Of a stretch of 38,893 nucleotides of DNA, positions 28,065 to 36,488 are shown one piece after another. The translations under genes and the position numbers were made by a program. Position 1 is the first letter of the stretch. Each line of letters starts with the position of its first letter. The notes under the pieces were generated by a model that saw only the letters and a program-made list of their open reading frames with translations, searched no databases and was not told where the DNA came from. Source of the DNA: Nanobdellati archaeon (GTDB taxonomy: Archaea; Nanobdellota; Nanobdellia; Woesearchaeales; JAADFO01); assembly GCA_013152815.1 (NCBI GenBank), contig JAADFO010000026.1:1-38893 (forward strand), written 5' to 3'.

Positions 28065-28895
28065 ATGGGAAAACACCATCATGCCCGAAGGGGAGCCACA
28101 CGGACCCATCTCACCCTGAAAGAGCTCAGAGCAAGCTATTTTTCGCGCTTGAACCAGTTAGGGAACGATCGTGAAGCGCTGCTGAAGCTCATCAAGGAGT
28201 TCTTCGTCGACTATTTCGATCTCAAGATACAGATCAGCTTTGACGACCTCCCCGCCATCATCGCCCGGCGGCAGCTGCCTCGGGACATCAAAGAGAAGAT
28301 TGTCAGGTTCACTGAATATCTCATCGAGACAGAATATAGCCCCGCTAACCACGTGGCTTCTTTCTCGGCAGTGGAGGAACGCTTCCGGAAGGTCATCTTC
28401 TTGATCACCATGCGCTCTGAACAGGCTTCCGGGTCAGGGCTCAGGCCTCTGAAGGCAGTCACGCGGCGCTATCTCAGTCCCCTACGGAAGATATATCATC
28501 ATTTCTTCCTTCCTGAAGAGGCAAGCCACGAGCTCAAACGTTTCCTGTTCTTGCAGAAGAAGTGTCTCGGCTTCGCAAAGAGCAAGCAGTATGGCCTTGC
28601 GAAGAAGGAATATGCTGCTGTCCTCCGGCATTATCAGAAGCTTGTTCCTGCAGCACAGGAGACCGCCTATCGGCATCTGCAGGAAGCCCACCGGGCAGTC
28701 CTTCTGAGCATACCGCACGAAGCCCACCTGCAGAAACTCTTGGACAAGGTACCCGCCCGGATCACGGCGAAGAACCGCGAGTCCTGGCGAAGCAGATATT
28801 CCGAGATGGTCAAGCATTACCAATATGTGGAGGAAAGCAAGAAGGAGCGATACTATGATCGGCTGCAGCGTCTCCGAAAAGTCTTAGCATCTTGA
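28065..28895 (+). CDS. Soluble helical protein, unknown function
   Basis: 276 codons, with no membrane segment or signal. The N-terminus is basic and His-rich (MGKHHHARRGATRTHL). The rest is predicted helical. The last third (FAKSKQYGLAKKEYAAVLRHYQKL...YRHLQEAHRAVLLS) resembles by eye the cytoplasmic end of the surface protein at 33159 (RALRAGKIQQAAEAYKELLGVYHVL...IYQQIKRIHGSI), a TPR-like repeat style. It may therefore be a cytosolic partner or paralogue of that domain. I do not recognise a named family. The minus-strand frames over it are shadows. Confidence 0.8.
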   Translation: MGKHHHARRGATRTHLTLKELRASYFSRLNQLGNDREALLKLIKEFFVDYFDLKIQISFDDLPAIIARRQLPRDIKEKIVRFTEYLIETEYSPANHVASFSAVEERFRKVIFLITMRSEQASGSGLRPLKAVTRRYLSPLRKIYHHFFLPEEASHELKRFLFLQKKCLGFAKSKQYGLAKKEYAAVLRHYQKLVPAAQETAYRHLQEAHRAVLLSIPHEAHLQKLLDKVPARITAKNRESWRSRYSEMVKHYQYVEESKKERYYDRLQRLRKVLAS

Positions 28896-28995: not shown

Positions 28996-31900
28996 CTAGC
29001 CGAAAAGGTCATGGAAGAACATCAGCAGGTTCTTCCAGATGCGGGTGAAGAATGCCCCCATGGTCCCGATGATGCCTTCTTTCTTCAACGGGTATTCCAC
29101 ATTGATGTCTTTCTGGTTGATGAGGTATTTGCAGCCCTGGAGCGCCTCGTCGATAAGCTGGCCGGCGGTGCGGAACCGGTTCTCTCCCACTGCCTGTTTT
29201 GCTCGGGAGAGCAGTTCATTGAGCTCGAGGCATTCAGGATTGCTCGCGAAGAGATCCCGGGTGAGCGCTATCCGGGTGTTGAGCTGGCTCCTGTTCTCTT
29301 CTCCCAGCTCCAGGCTGCTCACCAGTATCTTGAGCCGGTCGGTGTATTTCGGTCGGGTGACCCGTCCTTCGATGGTGACCTCGTAGTTTCCGTAATCACG
29401 ATGGGACCCGATGGTCAGGTTGAGGTCCCTCCGTTGGCCTGGTTTCAGTTCGCCGATATTCTCTGGAAAGAATGAGAAGTTGAGGGTCTGGTTGCCGGCC
29501 ACAGCGATGAACGAGATATTATGGAATGTCTTGTTGTCGTGGTTCTCGATGTAGAGCGGTACCTGCATGGTCTGGTTCTCGAAGATGGTGATGACTCCTG
29601 GATTGAGGATCTCCAGCGAGAAATATTTTGTCCTGTTGGATGTCTGGTTGACGAGCTTGGTCTTGGTGATGGTGATGTAGGATGCCCCTCCCGAACTCCC
29701 CCCTCCTGTCGAGCTGGTGGATGAGGTGCTCTCGGGGATGTCTATGAACGTGAGACTGATGTTATTGCTGTAGACGGTCCTGTTCCATGGATCGGTCGCG
29801 CTGAACCGCACCTCTGCTGTCTTTGGACCGTCTGCATAGATGCGGGCGATGTTCGTGCCGGCCTCTATGGCGACCGATATGCTTGCAGGAGCCGAATAAT
29901 TGTAGGTGAGGTTGTCGTCTCCGTCAAGGTCTGAGAAATAATCGTCCAGGTCGACCCAGAGAGTGGTAGTCTTCTCGTTGGCCTCGAAATCATCGATGAT
30001 ATAGTGGATGTTGGCCTGGCTGATGTTCGGGCTCTGCGAGGAATCGTTGGTCGACAGCAAGACCTTGAACTGGAGATATTCCTGTTTTGCTGCGCGGACG
30101 AGGTATCTGCTGTCGTTGTTTTGGGCTCTTGGGGAGATGTTCCATGAAGAGAAGCTGCTCCCGTCTGCAGATGTCCGGACATAAAAGGTGATGTTGGTTC
30201 CGTTGGGCATCCGGCTGCTGACGTCGATCTCGGTGATGTTGAGGTATCCTGCGTCTTCCCTGAGATCGAACGTGGTCGTGTTATACGTGCCTGACATGGC
30301 GAAGCTTCCGTTGTAGAAGAGCCGGAGCCGTGACCCTGACTGTTCGGTGCTGTTGAAATCACCACCTGCCCAGCTGCTGACGTTGACGATGCCGAAACGA
30401 GGGGGCCTGTTGAGGTTGGTGATGTTGACGGTCCATGACGTGCTCGTGTTGTGGACCCCGTCGCTTACCAGGACCGACATGTTCTTTATCCCTGCGGAGG
30501 CGAAGTCGGGTGTATAATTGAACTGGTACTGGTTGCTGATGTTCGTCCCGTCGACGCTCCATATATAGGTCAACGGCTGGCTCTCCGGATCCTGGGCGGT
30601 CACGTTGAAGAGCTGGCTGCTGTTCTCCTGGAGGGTGACTGTCTGTCCGGCGGGGTAGCGGGCATTGATGGTCGGGGGGTTGTTGTTGAACACGATCCGG
30701 AACCGGATGATCTTGGTGATGGTGGTGGTGCCGTCGCTGAGGTTGAAGAGGATGGAGTGGTTGCCGATATCTGCGCTTTGCGGCGTGAAATTGACGAGGA
30801 CAGTGGAATAGTTCACCGGGGTCAGGTTGAAGAGGCTGCTGTTGGTTCCGAACGCCAGACTGTTGTTCTCCTCGTCGCTTCCGCTGATGTACCAGGTGAA
30901 ATTGCTGTTCTCGAAGGTCGTCTGGTTGGTGATGTTCGGATTGAAGTAGGGCGGGTCGTTCACCTCGATGACGGTGAGCATGAAGATGGCCTCATCGGTC
31001 CCGTTCCAACCGTCGCTGATGTTGATGCGCAGGGTATGGTTGCCAACGTTTGTATAGTCTGGGGTGAAGTTGATGATCGCCTGCTCATGCCCCCGAGGTT
31101 CGATGGTGAAGAAGGAGGCGTTCAGCGAGAAGCCGACCGAATCATTGTCCGTGTCGTTGGCCCGGAAGACATGGACATAGTTCTGGTCTTCCGTTGCGGT
31201 GAGGTTGGTGATGTTCAGGAGCAGGGGGCGGGAGTTGTTGAGGATGCTGAAGGTGAACACTTCGATGTCCGAGAGAAGGCCGTCGCTCACGTTGATGATG
31301 ATGCTGTGGTTGCCCAGGTCGGCCTGGCCTGGCGTGAAGTTGATCAGCGCGCTGGTCGAGGAGACAGCAGTCAGGTTGAACATCGTCGTGTTGGTGGTGA
31401 AACTCAGGACGTCGTCGTCAGCATCGCTGGCGGTGATGAGCAAGGTGAACAGGTTGTCTGCCCGCCACTCCTGGTCTCCGATGCTCGCCAGGACCGGGGG
31501 ATTGTTGATGTCTGCTATGGAGAAGATGATGTCGGTATAGTTCGTCGCCCCCCAGCTGTCGTTCGCGGTTATCCTGACCGTGTGGTTTCCCACCATGCTG
31601 TTGTCCGGGGTGAACGAGATCCGGCCGGCGGTGGCATTGAACGTGCTGATGTTGAACAGCGTGCTGTTGTCGGTGAAGGCCAGGGAATCATTGTCGCTGT
31701 CCTGGGCCGTCACATCCATGGTGAACGCCGAGTTCTCGGTGAGGTTCTGGGTGCTGTAGCTGGTGATCGTGGGGGCATGGTTCCTCCGGATGGTGAGGTT
31801 CATGATGCTCGACACGTTGAACTCTCCGTCTCCGACGGTTATGTTGATGGAATAGGTGCCGTTCTGGCCCTCTGCAGGGGTGAAGCTGATGAGGCCCGAT

Positions 31901-33051
31901 CCGGAAACGTCGAAAAGGGTCGTATTATCGTAGTAGAACAGGCTCTGCGTGTCATTGTCCGACGCGTTCACCTGATAGCTGAACAGGCCGTGTTCTGCCC
32001 CTGTGTGGTTGCCGATGGTCTGGATGATCGGAGGGTCATTGACATTGGTGACGTTGAGGATGACCGTGTTGCTGTCCGTCTGGTTCCTGCCGTCGCTCAT
32101 GGTGAAGATGATGGCTTCGGTGCCGTACCAGTTCTTGTCGGGCGCGAACGTGACCGAGAAGTCGGCTTCGTCGATGAAAACATGGACCGACGAGTTCCCT
32201 GTTACGGTGAAGCTGATGTTGTCCTTGTTGCTTCCGCTGCATTCGAGGTTGTCGGCATCATAGAAATGGTCGGTGAGATTGAAGATGTTTGTGAGGTTGG
32301 TGTCCTCTGCCCAGGTGTAGTTGTCGATGGAGGTGTTGAGCACCGGGACGCGGTTGGTGTTGTTCACGCTGATGTTCCAGGTCTTGCTGTCGGTCGCGTT
32401 GTACTCGTCGGAGACGATGAGCGTGACATTGTGGTTTCCTGCATCGCAGAATCCGGGGGTGTACTGCCAGGTGCTGTTCATGGTGATGAGCGTGCCGTCG
32501 AAGGTGTAGGTGTTGCTGAGGCTGTCCACCGGAGGGTTGTGGATAAGGTCATCGTCGCTCGCATTGTAGTCAAAGTTGAACCCCAGGCTGTTGTTCTCGC
32601 TGATGCTGGGGGTGGGGATGGCAGGCGACCATCCGGTGATGTTCGGCGGATCGTTCGTGTTGGTGATGTTGAAGGTGATGAACTGTGAGCTGCCTTCGAA
32701 GGGGGTTCCGGAATCCTGGACAACGATGTTGATGGTGACCACCTGCTGTGCGTCATCATTGCGGGGCGTGAAGTTGATCAGCGCATAGGTGTCGTTATAG
32801 TTCTCCATGTGGAACACCGGCAGCAAGGAAGCCGAGTTGTCCGAGAAATTCAGAGGATATTCTGCATCTGCATCATAGCCGTGCACCAGGTATTCGAAGC
32901 GGGCATCCTCTGCGATGGTGAAATTGGACGGCAGGTCTATGAATACAGGGTTGCTGGCCAGAGCGATGGGCGCCGAGACGAGCAGAACACCTAGAAAGAA
33001 CAATGCGAGAGCCAGATTCCCGCGCCCTTTGGGAAAATTTGCCGGTTCCAT
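28996..33051 (-). CDS. Giant secreted cadherin-like repeat surface protein
   Basis: 1351 residues from ATG 33051, chosen because it begins a clean signal peptide (NLALALFFLGVLLVSAPIALA, then SNP). The track start adds an unlikely Cys/Arg-rich leader. About ten cadherin/Ig-like repeats of roughly 90-100 residues follow, each with a D-N-D-type turn, an LxFTxNxTxF strand and a closing INFTP...GNHTIxINxSDG block. N-x-S/T sequons are extremely frequent, pointing to heavy N-glycosylation. A Ser/Gly linker (STSSTGGGSSGGAS) precedes a different domain and a helical end (RAKQAVGENRFRTAGQLIDEA) closing with an amphipathic FFTRIWKNLLMFFHDLFG. The likely role is S-layer or adhesion. It lies downstream of the related gene at 33159. 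Confidence 0.88.
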   Translation of the reverse strand: MEPANFPKGRGNLALALFFLGVLLVSAPIALASNPVFIDLPSNFTIAEDARFEYLVHGYDADAEYPLNFSDNSASLLPVFHMENYNDTYALINFTPRNDDAQQVVTINIVVQDSGTPFEGSSQFITFNITNTNDPPNITGWSPAIPTPSISENNSLGFNFDYNASDDDLIHNPPVDSLSNTYTFDGTLITMNSTWQYTPGFCDAGNHNVTLIVSDEYNATDSKTWNISVNNTNRVPVLNTSIDNYTWAEDTNLTNIFNLTDHFYDADNLECSGSNKDNISFTVTGNSSVHVFIDEADFSVTFAPDKNWYGTEAIIFTMSDGRNQTDSNTVILNVTNVNDPPIIQTIGNHTGAEHGLFSYQVNASDNDTQSLFYYDNTTLFDVSGSGLISFTPAEGQNGTYSINITVGDGEFNVSSIMNLTIRRNHAPTITSYSTQNLTENSAFTMDVTAQDSDNDSLAFTDNSTLFNISTFNATAGRISFTPDNSMVGNHTVRITANDSWGATNYTDIIFSIADINNPPVLASIGDQEWRADNLFTLLITASDADDDVLSFTTNTTMFNLTAVSSTSALINFTPGQADLGNHSIIINVSDGLLSDIEVFTFSILNNSRPLLLNITNLTATEDQNYVHVFRANDTDNDSVGFSLNASFFTIEPRGHEQAIINFTPDYTNVGNHTLRINISDGWNGTDEAIFMLTVIEVNDPPYFNPNITNQTTFENSNFTWYISGSDEENNSLAFGTNSSLFNLTPVNYSTVLVNFTPQSADIGNHSILFNLSDGTTTITKIIRFRIVFNNNPPTINARYPAGQTVTLQENSSQLFNVTAQDPESQPLTYIWSVDGTNISNQYQFNYTPDFASAGIKNMSVLVSDGVHNTSTSWTVNITNLNRPPRFGIVNVSSWAGGDFNSTEQSGSRLRLFYNGSFAMSGTYNTTTFDLREDAGYLNITEIDVSSRMPNGTNITFYVRTSADGSSFSSWNISPRAQNNDSRYLVRAAKQEYLQFKVLLSTNDSSQSPNISQANIHYIIDDFEANEKTTTLWVDLDDYFSDLDGDDNLTYNYSAPASISVAIEAGTNIARIYADGPKTAEVRFSATDPWNRTVYSNNISLTFIDIPESTSSTSSTGGGSSGGASYITITKTKLVNQTSNRTKYFSLEILNPGVITIFENQTMQVPLYIENHDNKTFHNISFIAVAGNQTLNFSFFPENIGELKPGQRRDLNLTIGSHRDYGNYEVTIEGRVTRPKYTDRLKILVSSLELGEENRSQLNTRIALTRDLFASNPECLELNELLSRAKQAVGENRFRTAGQLIDEALQGCKYLINQKDINVEYPLKKEGIIGTMGAFFTRIWKNLLMFFHDLFG

Positions 33052-33158
33052 GCTTGTCTGTGACCTCTTCCTTTCTTTTCTACACGTCGGGGGTTTTAAT
33101 GCTTTTCTGTGGTTTCCCTGGCATCCCTGCTTCCGCTGTCGCCGGTTGAAGGTTCCTT

Positions 33159-35867
33159 TCACTCTTTGCCCGCCTCTTTCGCTTCCCGGACGCCTTTGAT
33201 GATGCTTCCGTGGATCCTCTTTATCTGCTGATAGATCCCGGTCTTGTCTCTTTCGCTGAGCACGTGATAGACTCCCAGCAGCTCCTTATATGCTTCGGCC
33301 GCCTGCTGTATCTTCCCTGCCCGCAACGCCCGTCTCACTTTTCCGAGGAGCATGTTGGCGTTTCCTTTGGTTATCGTGCTGGAAAGGGTCCCCTGCTGTT
33401 CTGCCATGGTGCTGACCAGCTGCTTCGCTTCTCCGAGGATTCTTTCCAGGTGTTCCTGGGCAAGGCCCTCTTCAGAGAAGCGGAGGGTCTCCAGCAGCCT
33501 GAAGAAGCGCTGGATCTTCTGGGCGAGCGCCCCCGGAACCCTGTGGTTCTCCAATTCTTTCCCGAGCTCATCAGGGGTGAAAGCATAGTCGATACCGAGC
33601 ATCAAGGAGACGTATTCCCTCATCTCGGTGACCAGCTGTTCGATGGTCTCGTGGGAGGTGACTGCGGTGATGTGGTCATGGAGCGTTTCGAGCTTGCTGA
33701 AGACAGACTCCACAATATCCTCCGGCTTCCTCGCTTTTGGGGTCATGAGATAATGGACATAGCTCTCGACTTTGTAGGTCGCCCAGCCGTATCCCTGCCG
33801 GAGTTTCTTCCTGGCGATGAAGAGGAGTATCGGCAGCAGCAGGAGAGCGAGGATGGCCCACATGCCCGGGCCACTGCTTCCGAACGGTGCCTCAAGGAAC
33901 GGCCTTTCTGAACACGCTTGGCATGGTCCGCCGCAGTCGATTCCGGTCTCTTCCTGGTTCTGTATGCCGTCTTCGCAGGTGGGGCACGCTTGGCATGGTC
34001 CGCCGCAGTCGATTCCGGTCTCTTCCTGGTTCTGTATGCCATCTGTGCAGCTTGGGCATATGTCGGGGCATGGTCCGCCGCAGTCGATTCCGGTCTCTTC
34101 CTGGTTCTGTATGCCGTCTTCGCAGGTGGGGCAGGGTCCGCAGTGTCCGCCGCAGTCGACGCCGGTCTCCCGCCCGTTCTTGATGTGGTCATAACAGGTG
34201 GGTATGTACGTGCAGTTCTTCTGCGTCGGTGGTTTGTTCACGTCGGTCTGGCAGTCGGTGAGATCGACGCAGGAACGGCTCTTGCTTCCTGAAGGAAAAC
34301 AGTCTGTCCAGTCCTGACAGACCCAATACTCCTCGCATCTGCTGTGGGGTACGCTTCCTCCTCCTGCTCCTCCTCCTGCTCCCTGGGTGGGTTCTGGTTC
34401 ATCTACTGCCTGGACGGTCAGATAGATCAGGTTGGTGGGCGCCGAGTCACCGCTCGGGTCGACGGCAGAATAGATGATGTTCCTGTTGCCGTTGAAATCC
34501 TTCTCAGGCGTGAGGGTGACGACATGGGTGGTGGCGTCGATCTGCACACCGATATTGGCCACCAGCGTCGAATTATAGGTGAGGTTGTCTCCGTCGGGGT
34601 CCATGAAATAGTTGTCCAGGTCCCGCCCGGTGAGGACCGTATCCTCCGGCCAGGTCTCGTTGGGAAGCGTATGGATGAGCACCGGCCGCCGGTTGGTGAT
34701 GGTCACGTTGTCGATGGCACTGATGGAATAGTAATCGCTGCGGTTACAGGTCACGTTCCAGAGATAGGTTCCCGGTCGGGGGATGATGGTCGTATAGGTA
34801 AAAGCTGAGGCGTTCGGGTCGTAGGTCATGTTCTTCTCGATGACGATGTCATGGGGGCCGTAGAGACGTTCCACACAGCTGCCGTCCGTGATGTCTGTCT
34901 CGTTGCCATAGTGGTAATCTGCATAGAAGGTCACGTTCTGGACATTGTAACGGGTGTAGGTGTCCGTGGTGTCGCTCAGGTCTATGTACGCGCTGTCCAG
35001 GACGTAATAATCGGTGAAATGGGCGACGATGACGGTCACGTTTCCGGAACTGTTGACATTTCCGTTATAGGCGGGTGCATCACAGATGTTGGCGGGGCAC
35101 GGCTTTCCCGAGGTGAACATCTTCGGCTGTCTCATGGTCAGGTTGTAGAAGGTCAATGTTGCCCATTTGCTCAGACGGGGAAGCCGGGTCTCGTTGAGAT
35201 AGATGAAAGCATGGGCGATGGTGATATGGCTGTCCAGGTCATAGGTGTTCACGTTGCTCTGGGTGGTGTCGTATCGGATGAGGCCGCGGTCCGGTATGCC
35301 CAGGCGAAGGTCGGTGATGTTATCCCAGCAGGCGAAGAGAGACAGGTTGGTGGAAAGGCTGTTCTTGAACTGCTCCCATGAGGGTTCGATGCAATCGCTG
35401 ATCAGCATGTTTGCCAGGATGTCGGTGCCGCTGTTGCTGCAGCCCGTCTGGTCGTCGACGGTGAACAGGATGCTGTAGTTGCCGAGATCGCCGACAGTCG
35501 GGTTGATGTCCACCCATCCTGATCGGTTCACGTCAAAGAGGGTCGTGTTGTCGTAGTAGGCCAGAGGATTCCCCTCGGGATCTGTCGCATTGATGAAACA
35601 GCTGATGTTCTCTGTATAGAGATAGGTGCCGCTGCAGTTCTCGCTCCCTGTCGGAGGGTGGTTGACGCAGAGGGACACGTCTCCGGTGGCAAGTCCTGTG
35701 GGCGTCCCCTTTATGGGTTCGCTGAAGGTGATGAGATAATAGTTGGTGCTGGTGGAGATGAGGATGAGCAGCAGTGCCAGGGTGGCGATGATGTTGTTGG
35801 AGAGCCTTCGCGCTATCTTTTTCTGCTTCTCTTTCTTCGGTCTTTTCAGCGCCTTCAACGGGCGCAT
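33159..35867 (-). CDS. Two-pass surface protein with cadherin-like domains and DCGG repeats
   Basis: 902 residues from ATG 35867, set by the promoter layout (palindrome, TATA-like, palindrome, ATG), which matches that of the gene upstream. A basic start and helix (NNIIATLALLLILISTSTNYY) anchor it. The outer part has cadherin-like segments (FDVNRSGWVDINPTVGDLGN, YFMDPDGDNLTYNSTL), a Cys-rich stretch (CEEYWVCQDWTDC), then four tandem units of the type CEDGIQNQEETGIDCGGPCQ. A second helix (MWAILALLLLPILLFIARKK) leads to about 230 cytoplasmic residues that are helical and resemble the soluble protein at 28065. It could connect the cell surface to an internal partner. Co-transcription with the giant protein downstream is likely. 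Confidence 0.87.
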   Translation of the reverse strand: MRPLKALKRPKKEKQKKIARRLSNNIIATLALLLILISTSTNYYLITFSEPIKGTPTGLATGDVSLCVNHPPTGSENCSGTYLYTENISCFINATDPEGNPLAYYDNTTLFDVNRSGWVDINPTVGDLGNYSILFTVDDQTGCSNSGTDILANMLISDCIEPSWEQFKNSLSTNLSLFACWDNITDLRLGIPDRGLIRYDTTQSNVNTYDLDSHITIAHAFIYLNETRLPRLSKWATLTFYNLTMRQPKMFTSGKPCPANICDAPAYNGNVNSSGNVTVIVAHFTDYYVLDSAYIDLSDTTDTYTRYNVQNVTFYADYHYGNETDITDGSCVERLYGPHDIVIEKNMTYDPNASAFTYTTIIPRPGTYLWNVTCNRSDYYSISAIDNVTITNRRPVLIHTLPNETWPEDTVLTGRDLDNYFMDPDGDNLTYNSTLVANIGVQIDATTHVVTLTPEKDFNGNRNIIYSAVDPSGDSAPTNLIYLTVQAVDEPEPTQGAGGGAGGGSVPHSRCEEYWVCQDWTDCFPSGSKSRSCVDLTDCQTDVNKPPTQKNCTYIPTCYDHIKNGRETGVDCGGHCGPCPTCEDGIQNQEETGIDCGGPCPDICPSCTDGIQNQEETGIDCGGPCQACPTCEDGIQNQEETGIDCGGPCQACSERPFLEAPFGSSGPGMWAILALLLLPILLFIARKKLRQGYGWATYKVESYVHYLMTPKARKPEDIVESVFSKLETLHDHITAVTSHETIEQLVTEMREYVSLMLGIDYAFTPDELGKELENHRVPGALAQKIQRFFRLLETLRFSEEGLAQEHLERILGEAKQLVSTMAEQQGTLSSTITKGNANMLLGKVRRALRAGKIQQAAEAYKELLGVYHVLSERDKTGIYQQIKRIHGSIIKGVREAKEAGKE
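33914..34197. repeat. Tandem DNA repeat encoding CxDGIQNQEETGIDCGGPC units
   Basis: Three near-identical units start at 33921, 33993 and 34068 (steps of 72 and 75 bp), each containing CCGCCGCAGTCGATTCCGGT; a fourth, diverged unit lies at 34130-34197. Near identity at DNA level suggests recent expansion or conversion. It is inside a coding region and is not a CRISPR array. Confidence 0.85.
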
Positions 35868-35872
35868 CGTGT

Positions 35873-35885
35873 GTTGATTATCAAC
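35873..35885. promoter_or_regulatory. 13-bp palindromic operator, promoter-proximal, surface-protein gene
   Basis: GTTGATTATCAAC is a perfect palindrome around its central base, 6 bp before ATG 35867. Its partner starts exactly 38 bp upstream at 35911. Confidence 0.65.
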
Positions 35886-35892
35886 TTCCTTC

Positions 35893-35901
35893 ATCTTATT
35901 G
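35893..35901 (-). promoter_or_regulatory. TATA-like element between the paired operators
   Basis: The minus strand reads CAATAAGAT. It occupies exactly the same offset (+20 to +28 from the proximal palindrome) as the clear TATAAAAAG of the gene upstream. It is a weak match by itself. Confidence 0.4.
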
Positions 35902-35910
35902 CTCTTTGCT

Positions 35911-35923
35911 GTTGATTATCCAC
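35911..35923. promoter_or_regulatory. 13-bp palindromic operator, promoter-distal, surface-protein gene
   Basis: GTTGATTATCCAC has one mismatch to the palindrome at 35873. It overlaps the last codons of the upstream gene. Confidence 0.6.
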
Positions 35924-36434
35924 GTTCATTTCTTTCCTCTTCTTTTCTCTGGTTCCTTTCTTCCGGAAGGTATGTGAGGAACATCCTGGTCTTGACCTTC
36001 CAGGCGTCGAAGAAGGAATTCATCTCAGAGATGTTTCTTACAGGGACCATCAATGCGTTGCGTCCGACCATCCTGGCTCCGAGCTTCTGGAGGGCTCCTT
36101 CTTGGCTGTTCCTGCCTCTGAGTGCGTAGCCGAAGCGGGTCTTCTGGACGTGGTCCAGCCCATCAAGGGCATAGGTGAGAGCCATGGTCGGCACCAGACC
36201 GAGGGCTTTGCCATAGTCCCTCTTGCGAAGCACAGATGTGCTGTCGCAGAAGAGCCTGACCAGCTCTCCGCTGTCCATGAGCTGCTCCAGCGTGATTACG
36301 TGGCGATATCGTTTCCTGAGCCTGTTCAGGGCTGTTGGATCGGGGGTGTTCCGCAGGACAAGCCACTCCTGATTATCGAGAAGAAGAAGATCATACACCT
36401 CTTTTGCATCCAAGTAGGGAAATAACTCGCCCAT
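35916..36434 (-). CDS. Unknown 172-residue protein, possible regulator by context
   Basis: 172 residues from ATG 36434. The track start (36452) overlaps an operator, while the TATA box at 36458-36466 puts transcription start at about 36436 (leaderless). The sequence is soluble and basic (LNRLRKRYRHVITLEQLMDS, TRFGYALRGRNSQEGALQKL), with a strongly charged tail (RNQRKEEERNERG). I cannot place it in a family and see no clear helix-turn-helix. Its promoter carries the same paired palindromes as the surface-protein gene 49 bp downstream, so it may be co-regulated or may itself be the autoregulator. Confidence 0.75.
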   Translation of the reverse strand: MGELFPYLDAKEVYDLLLLDNQEWLVLRNTPDPTALNRLRKRYRHVITLEQLMDSGELVRLFCDSTSVLRKRDYGKALGLVPTMALTYALDGLDHVQKTRFGYALRGRNSQEGALQKLGARMVGRNALMVPVRNISEMNSFFDAWKVKTRMFLTYLPEERNQRKEEERNERG

Positions 36435-36437
36435 GTG

Positions 36438-36450
36438 GTTTATTATCAAC
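36438..36450. promoter_or_regulatory. 13-bp palindromic operator, promoter-proximal, unknown gene
   Basis: GTTTATTATCAAC has one mismatch to the perfect palindrome. It lies 4 bp before ATG 36434 and covers the predicted transcript start. Confidence 0.6.
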
Positions 36451-36457
36451 AAGCAGG

Positions 36458-36466
36458 CTTTTTATA
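36458..36466 (-). promoter_or_regulatory. TATA box of the 172-residue unknown gene
   Basis: The minus strand reads TATAAAAAG, centred about 28 bp from ATG 36434 and located between two palindromes. Confidence 0.6.
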
Positions 36467-36475
36467 GCTTTTGTT

Positions 36476-36488
36476 GTTGCTTATCAAC
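36476..36488. promoter_or_regulatory. 13-bp palindromic operator, promoter-distal, unknown gene
   Basis: GTTGCTTATCAAC, one mismatch, starts exactly 38 bp from its partner at 36438, the same spacing as the pair at 35873 and 35911. Confidence 0.6.

Follow-up and report, generated by a model that had tools for sequence, protein, structure and literature searches.

Paired 13-bp palindromes around a TATA box precede a candidate self-controlling regulator of cell-surface genes in Woesearchaeales

What controls the surface-protein genes clustered on contig JAADFO010000026.1 of a Nanobdellati archaeon of the order Woesearchaeales (assembly GCA_013152815.1), and what acts on the palindromes that precede them? 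Gene regulation in these archaea is poorly known, and a small literature search found no studied regulator from them. The whole contig, 38,893 nucleotides long and called the window hereafter, holds two pairs of 13-bp palindromic sites, one located before the gene of a 172-residue protein and the other at the junction of this gene with that of a surface protein. We consider it likely that both pairs serve as operators in a conserved circuit of local autoregulation run by the 172-residue protein.

The four sites are located at 35873–35885, 35911–35923, 36438–36450 and 36476–36488, and all are associated with genes of the minus strand. The start-to-start spacing is exactly 38 bp within both pairs. 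At two mismatches or fewer, the window contains 11 strand-matches where 0.66 are expected, a number that was reached in none of 100 dinucleotide-preserving shuffles. The four sites and both spacings are therefore real and not due to chance, and coordinates and shuffles agree with the two exactly spaced pairs reported in a preliminary description of this DNA. The genome-wide search suggested in that description found no further pair elsewhere in the whole assembly (1.49 Mb, 76 contigs), the pairs being confined to the window locus.

Are the pairs kept in other genomes? With up to three mismatches allowed, the 38-bp pair was detected in 20 of the 353 genomes of the order, for a single match to a reversed control pattern. 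Two of the 20 (G143 and G160) showed only one-strand matches with three mismatches and were taken as chance, so that convincing pairs are present in 18 genomes belonging to nine families. Outside the order, none of 276 genomes carried the pair (378 genomes had been drawn from the class). When the spacing was left free between 23 and 53 bp, 20 pairs were recovered, 18 at exactly 38 bp, one at 36 bp and one at 44 bp, the last corresponding to the gap between two tandem pairs; the control pattern gave no match in this search. Triplets at 38+38 bp occur in G043, G109 and G112. Loss of the sites and of their spacing upstream of orthologous genes had been named beforehand as the observation that would speak against operators. 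Orthologs of the 172-residue protein in other families are instead preceded by the same pair, with a TATA box between the sites, and many families keep the pair with both its 38 bp of spacing and its central TATA box. The pair is present in each of the 12 genomes that encode the strongest orthologs (E below 1e-30; Fisher p 2e-17, uncorrected for kinship), and mostly stands directly before the gene. Related genomes inflate these counts, for which the nine families are a more honest sample size, and many of the genomes are incomplete. No sites were found before other paralogs except in G346, in a scan that missed pairs at miscalled starts (G000, G029, G112) and whose negatives are weakened accordingly. 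Two contigs with a neighbouring gene for an OB-fold protein (L047, L048) carried no pair. Placement of the genomes near Woesearchaeota depends on two named contigs that encode a neighbouring protein with 44–45% identity. A possible different repeat was seen in G107 and G348 while scanning upstream of paralogs.

The promoter of the 172-residue gene has a well-defined architecture on the minus strand. The distal operator (36476–36488) reads GTTGATAAGCAAC on the coding strand, where orthologs mostly have GTTGATAATCAAC; the TATA box TATAAAAA (36459–36466) occupies the middle of the spacer, with an A-rich stretch upstream resembling a TFB-recognition element (BRE); and the proximal operator (36438–36450) reads GTTGATAATAAAC. 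The TATA box begins 9 bp after the distal site and ends 8 bp before the proximal one, which corrects the 20–28 bp from the proximal site given previously. Scored in register with a matrix built from promoters of other genomes, it reaches 11.2, among the top 0.02% of window positions. The register of the TATA box is nearly constant in promoters of this type, where the distal site usually ends in ...TCAAC and the proximal one in ...TAAAC; position 10 is an A in 14 of 17 proximal sites versus 3 of 17 distal sites, and distal sites are closer to a perfect palindrome.

The ATG was found 3 bp behind the proximal site for the 172-residue gene and 5 bp behind it for the surface gene if this starts at 35867, both on the minus strand, instead of 4 or 6 bp as first described. 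In nine of ten checked orthologs of the 172-residue protein, the ATG lies 1–7 bp past the proximal site. Genes of this type are therefore probably leaderless or nearly so, and archaeal promoter geometry predicts that the proximal site covers or abuts the transcription start. The idea that the sites fix the true start codons is supported for the 172-residue gene; it does not extend to the surface gene. One ortholog, in G029 (L008:1065-1130), has no ATG right behind the operator, though its frame opens there.

The 172-residue protein (P0001; 35916–36434, minus strand) combines a degenerate nucleotidyltransferase-like N-terminal half with a conserved C-terminal ferredoxin-like domain (residues ~80–157). 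It is an outlying member of a family present in 117 of the 353 genomes (E below 1e-10), and the only member found in its own genome, where the operator locus is also single. A nucleotidyltransferase domain (Polbeta/NTP_transf_2) was recognised at the N-terminus of 27–28 of 44 family members, and the window protein lacks, from the GS...D-x-D site of minimal nucleotidyltransferases, the GS and DxD residues still present in its paralogs. No match above chance level was obtained for the protein or its single-domain version in Pfam, NCBIfam, PHROGs or PADLOC, and no viral relatives were found. AlphaFold2 models (mean predicted local distance difference test scores of 91.6 and 91.5) display a beta-alpha-beta-beta-alpha-beta, ferredoxin-like domain. 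Several Cas2 chains are among the nearest Foldseek matches (template modelling score about 0.5, E 0.05 or worse); a link with Cas2 lacks support at the sequence level, where no Cas2 match was obtained, and a Cas2 family search in the relatives found none. A palindrome-binding ferredoxin-like domain of the papillomavirus E2/EBNA1 type was also considered, and no such structure appears among the matches listed.

Which part of the protein does the operator follow? Operator-linked members at the surface locus have a degenerate nucleotidyltransferase half, and in two families the C-terminal domain occurs by itself. In G250, two tandem operator-TATA-operator promoters (L095:3872-4004) precede a gene encoding the C-terminal domain alone (93 residues), the N-terminal half being gone, and in G045 a cut-off open reading frame (ORF) behind an operator at a contig end opens almost directly with this domain. 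The operator also precedes an intact nucleotidyltransferase fused to the C-terminal domain in G346 (variant GTTGACTATCAAC) and a two-gene unit ending in the domain in G242. Since it is found with the domain alone, with an intact nucleotidyltransferase and in a two-gene unit, the ~80-residue C-terminal domain is the sole element common to these genes and the one that the operator follows. Among the 44 aligned members, T99 is present in 14 of 14 operator-linked proteins versus 2 of the 30 others, and H95, G102, R125 and N126 likewise separate the two groups.

Several family members follow, by eye, an ORF of ~120 residues. Such two-gene modules (L014, L015, L019, L022, L024, L026 and others) encode a ~120-residue protein with a conserved H-x-x-R-F motif, then the nucleotidyltransferase with its C-terminal domain; in G099, at a contig end, the operator precedes an ORF resembling this partner gene. 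The combination looks like a pair of the HEPN-MNT (minimal nucleotidyltransferase) type, which we mention as a lead only. Pfam gives no HEPN call for the ~120-residue partner and its PDB matches are weak, short and mostly TPR-like, so that a HEPN identity is not claimed.

How could such a protein act on such sites? The data establish the sites with their constant spacing, the register of the TATA box, the conservation of these features and the association of the sites with the 172-residue family, while DNA binding, dimerisation, repression and an antitoxin ancestry of the protein are inferred. Dimers of the protein would bind the 13-bp palindromes through the C-terminal ferredoxin-like domain, each site receiving one. 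On the promoter of the 172-residue gene itself, the proximal site would lie over or against the transcription start and the distal site against the BRE, so that two dimers flanking the TATA box would exclude the TBP-TFB-RNA polymerase complex and produce a negative feedback. Surface genes behind the 172-residue gene would be controlled by read-through from its promoter, and in the window lineage the second operator pair at the gene junction would add control of these genes. As to its origin, the most likely ancestor of the 172-residue protein is the nucleotidyltransferase partner of an antitoxin-like module, which would have persisted as a regulator once its catalytic site had decayed. The preliminary description had listed the 172-residue gene among the controlled genes; operators do precede it, but its product is better viewed as the best candidate regulator than as merely a target. 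The same description had imagined one dimer bridging both sites with the TATA box held in a loop. A constant distance of 38 bp corresponds to 3.6 helical turns and places the sites on different faces of straight B-DNA, which argues against a same-face loop, and triplets at 38+38 bp exist. Because of these three-site arrays, the 38-bp register is probably set by the protein assembly as well as by the TATA box. More tentatively, with doubt slightly outweighing belief, we propose that the C-terminal ~80-residue domain is a new ferredoxin-like DNA-binding domain distinct from the helix-turn-helix (HTH), derived from nucleotidyltransferase two-gene modules and co-opted, sometimes as a stand-alone protein, as an autorepressor of surface clusters on 38-bp tandem palindromes around the TATA box.

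Several results weigh against autoregulation by the 172-residue protein. Neither family searches nor models revealed an HTH or another known DNA-binding domain in it, and the PDB and BFVD yielded no confident fold match, only generic ferredoxin-like folds. Most operator-linked members are related to each other, so that their independence is overstated, and no strong ortholog was found in three genomes, all incomplete (G113, G114 and G116). In addition, in eight genomes of family f7 an operator array adjoins the nre gene at its 3′ end and in most cases occupies the gap where nre and alaS converge, a few bases past the nre stop (L082:3308-3396 in G109, where Pfam identified Nre and alanyl-tRNA synthetase; also L083, L088, L089, L090, L091, L093 and L094). 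These arrays are pairs or triplets (38+38 and, once, 38+36 bp) with no constant gene behind them; some have TATA-like spacers, and the neighbouring small genes vary. Simple autoregulation does not explain them. They might be titration sites, promoters of an antisense transcript or small RNA, or what is left of a mobile module.

The array away from any family gene in f7 would fit a regulator encoded elsewhere, for instance an Lrp/FFRP-type or other HTH protein, with the 172-residue gene as a conserved target only. The archaeal Lrp-type protein FL11 binds a 13-bp palindrome and Lrp sites occur in regular clusters (PMC2995911), and the C-terminal domain is without a known DNA-binding fold. However, the operator tracks this domain even when it is alone or joined to a different N-terminal half, it was not found before the other paralogs tested, and no other gene was seen in common beside the operators. 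Furthermore, Lrp sites are reported to share one face of the DNA at distances of two or three helical turns (PMC2995911), as opposed to 3.6 turns here. We regard a regulator encoded elsewhere as quite unlikely. The varying small genes that adjoin the nre-alaS arrays of G110, G114 and G115 could also suggest that a mobile element or recombinase targets the pairs, which would then mark insertion boundaries instead of acting as transcriptional operators; the near-constant TATA register between the sites with an ATG right behind, across families, and a largely conserved flanking gene order make this very improbable.

A different question is whether the 172-residue protein, if bound, only represses. 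The distal site upstream of the BRE could recruit TBP/TFB, with the proximal site limiting output at high protein concentration. This is a variant of autoregulation in which the same protein binds, and its probability overlaps with the one that we give to autoregulation. The known archaeal activators Ptr2, LysM and Ss-LrpB occupy DNA immediately upstream of the BRE, and the last of them moves from activation to repression of its own promoter with increasing concentration (PMC2995911); the distal sites are also nearer to a perfect palindrome than the proximal ones. Nevertheless, the ATG of these probably leaderless genes comes 1–7 bp after the proximal site, so that a protein bound there should prevent initiation, and the repressor YtrASa has its sites over the start (PMC6746942). 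Activation or dual control may be considered a serious rival to plain repression, albeit an unlikely one.

The second pair of the window was initially described as a promoter of the same design. The two operator pairs are indeed alike, but the surface-gene pair is not clearly a promoter. On the minus strand, its distal site (GTGGATAATCAAC, 35911–35923) holds the stop codon of the 172-residue gene, its TATA-like element AATAAG (35895–35900) is weak, with a doubtful promoter role (in-register score -0.35, top 0.9% of window positions), and its proximal site (GTTGATAATCAAC, 35873–35885) falls within the surface ORF if this starts at an in-frame ATG located upstream of the site, at 35894. The sites leave the start of the surface gene undecided between 35867 and 35894. 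A corresponding pair was found in G001 (two copies of GTTGATATTCAAC) and, more loosely, in G242, where no TATA box lies between the sites; it is not present in other genomes with shared gene order. In G001, the nearest relative, the gene of the 172-residue ortholog overlaps the surface gene by an ATGA, with the two sites located in coding sequence. As a promoter, the second pair has weak support; as an operator pair it is real, and its best description is that of operators at a gene junction, acting perhaps as an internal promoter or a road-block.

The surface protein (33159–35867, minus strand, or from 35894) has an Ig/cadherin-like domain and DCGG-type cysteine repeats, with a long tail behind a second hydrophobic segment; part of this tail resembles, by eye, a 276-residue ORF at 28065–28895. 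The end of its gene overlaps by 4 bp the gene of a 1388-residue protein with tandem Ig/cadherin-like domains (28996–33162, minus strand), and both genes probably belong to one transcription unit. Sequences resembling parts of the surface protein were found in 19 of 20 genomes searched. A surface-protein gene lies directly behind the 172-residue ortholog in G001, G007, G109–G112, G115, G029 and G043. In several relatives the order is short membrane proteins, a ~400-residue and a ~140-residue protein (with an N-terminal hydrophobic segment, by eye), the operator, the 172-residue ortholog and a ~900-residue surface protein, often followed by another large surface protein; the 172-residue gene, the surface gene and the second large surface gene of this cluster are also present in the window. 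In G110, the locus formed by the operator, the 172-residue ortholog and the surface protein exists in two separate copies (L084, L085).

The presence of a paired-site promoter before one small gene in nine families suggests that its product regulates cell-surface genes as well as itself, and is of a kind not recognised so far. The locus offers a defined operator, a candidate regulator (about 90 residues at its smallest) and a target, and can be tested with purified components and without culture. Should the 172-residue protein bind, a DNA-binding domain other than the HTH would be added to archaeal transcription control, and an antitoxin-like module would have come to regulate cell-surface proteins with a possible role in contact with partner cells.

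How does this system compare with known ones? Lrp proteins also carry a ferredoxin-like domain (RAM). The N-terminal HTH plus RAM architecture of Lrp/AsnC was not recovered here: HTH families gave no match, and the elements of the models are not arranged as in an HTH. As in Ss-LrpB and other archaeal Lrp proteins, several regularly spaced palindromes lie in the regulator's own control region, whereas Lrp proteins have an HTH and sites two or three turns apart on one face (PMC2995911), compared with no HTH and 3.6 turns in 18 of 20 pairs here. YtrASa of Sulfolobus acidocaldarius, of the GntR family, has a regulon made of its own operon and a membrane-protein locus; the restricted regulon and the palindromic site over the transcription start are reminiscent of our locus, but YtrASa has an HTH and one core site per promoter (PMC6746942), in contrast to two sites flanking the TATA box and no HTH found. 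VapB14 of Sulfolobales, which is toxin-less in one species, is a parallel in that this archaeal antitoxin was retained for the transcriptional control of surface traits (PMC10127717); VapB belongs to a different family and no sequence relation is claimed.

Functionally, the nearest known system is the HEPN-MNT module SO_3166/SO_3165 of Shewanella oneidensis, where the minimal nucleotidyltransferase antitoxin, without a predicted DNA-binding domain, binds its own promoter and represses it, and two palindromes lie near the core promoter (PMC4621449). The Shewanella palindromes are dissimilar (PMC4621449), whereas ours are near-identical and fixed at 38 bp around an archaeal TATA box; the 172-residue family has in addition a C-terminal domain, with a nucleotidyltransferase half that is degenerate or absent. 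No HEPN or toxin-like partner gene was seen beside the window protein or at the surface-gene locus. Because the nucleotidyltransferase residues, the toxin partner and the HTH are missing, the window protein stands outside the HEPN-MNT, YtrASa and VapB14 groups. Its promoter shares with autoregulated archaeal promoters palindromes that flank or overlap the TATA box and the start and that are conserved before the gene of the candidate regulator.

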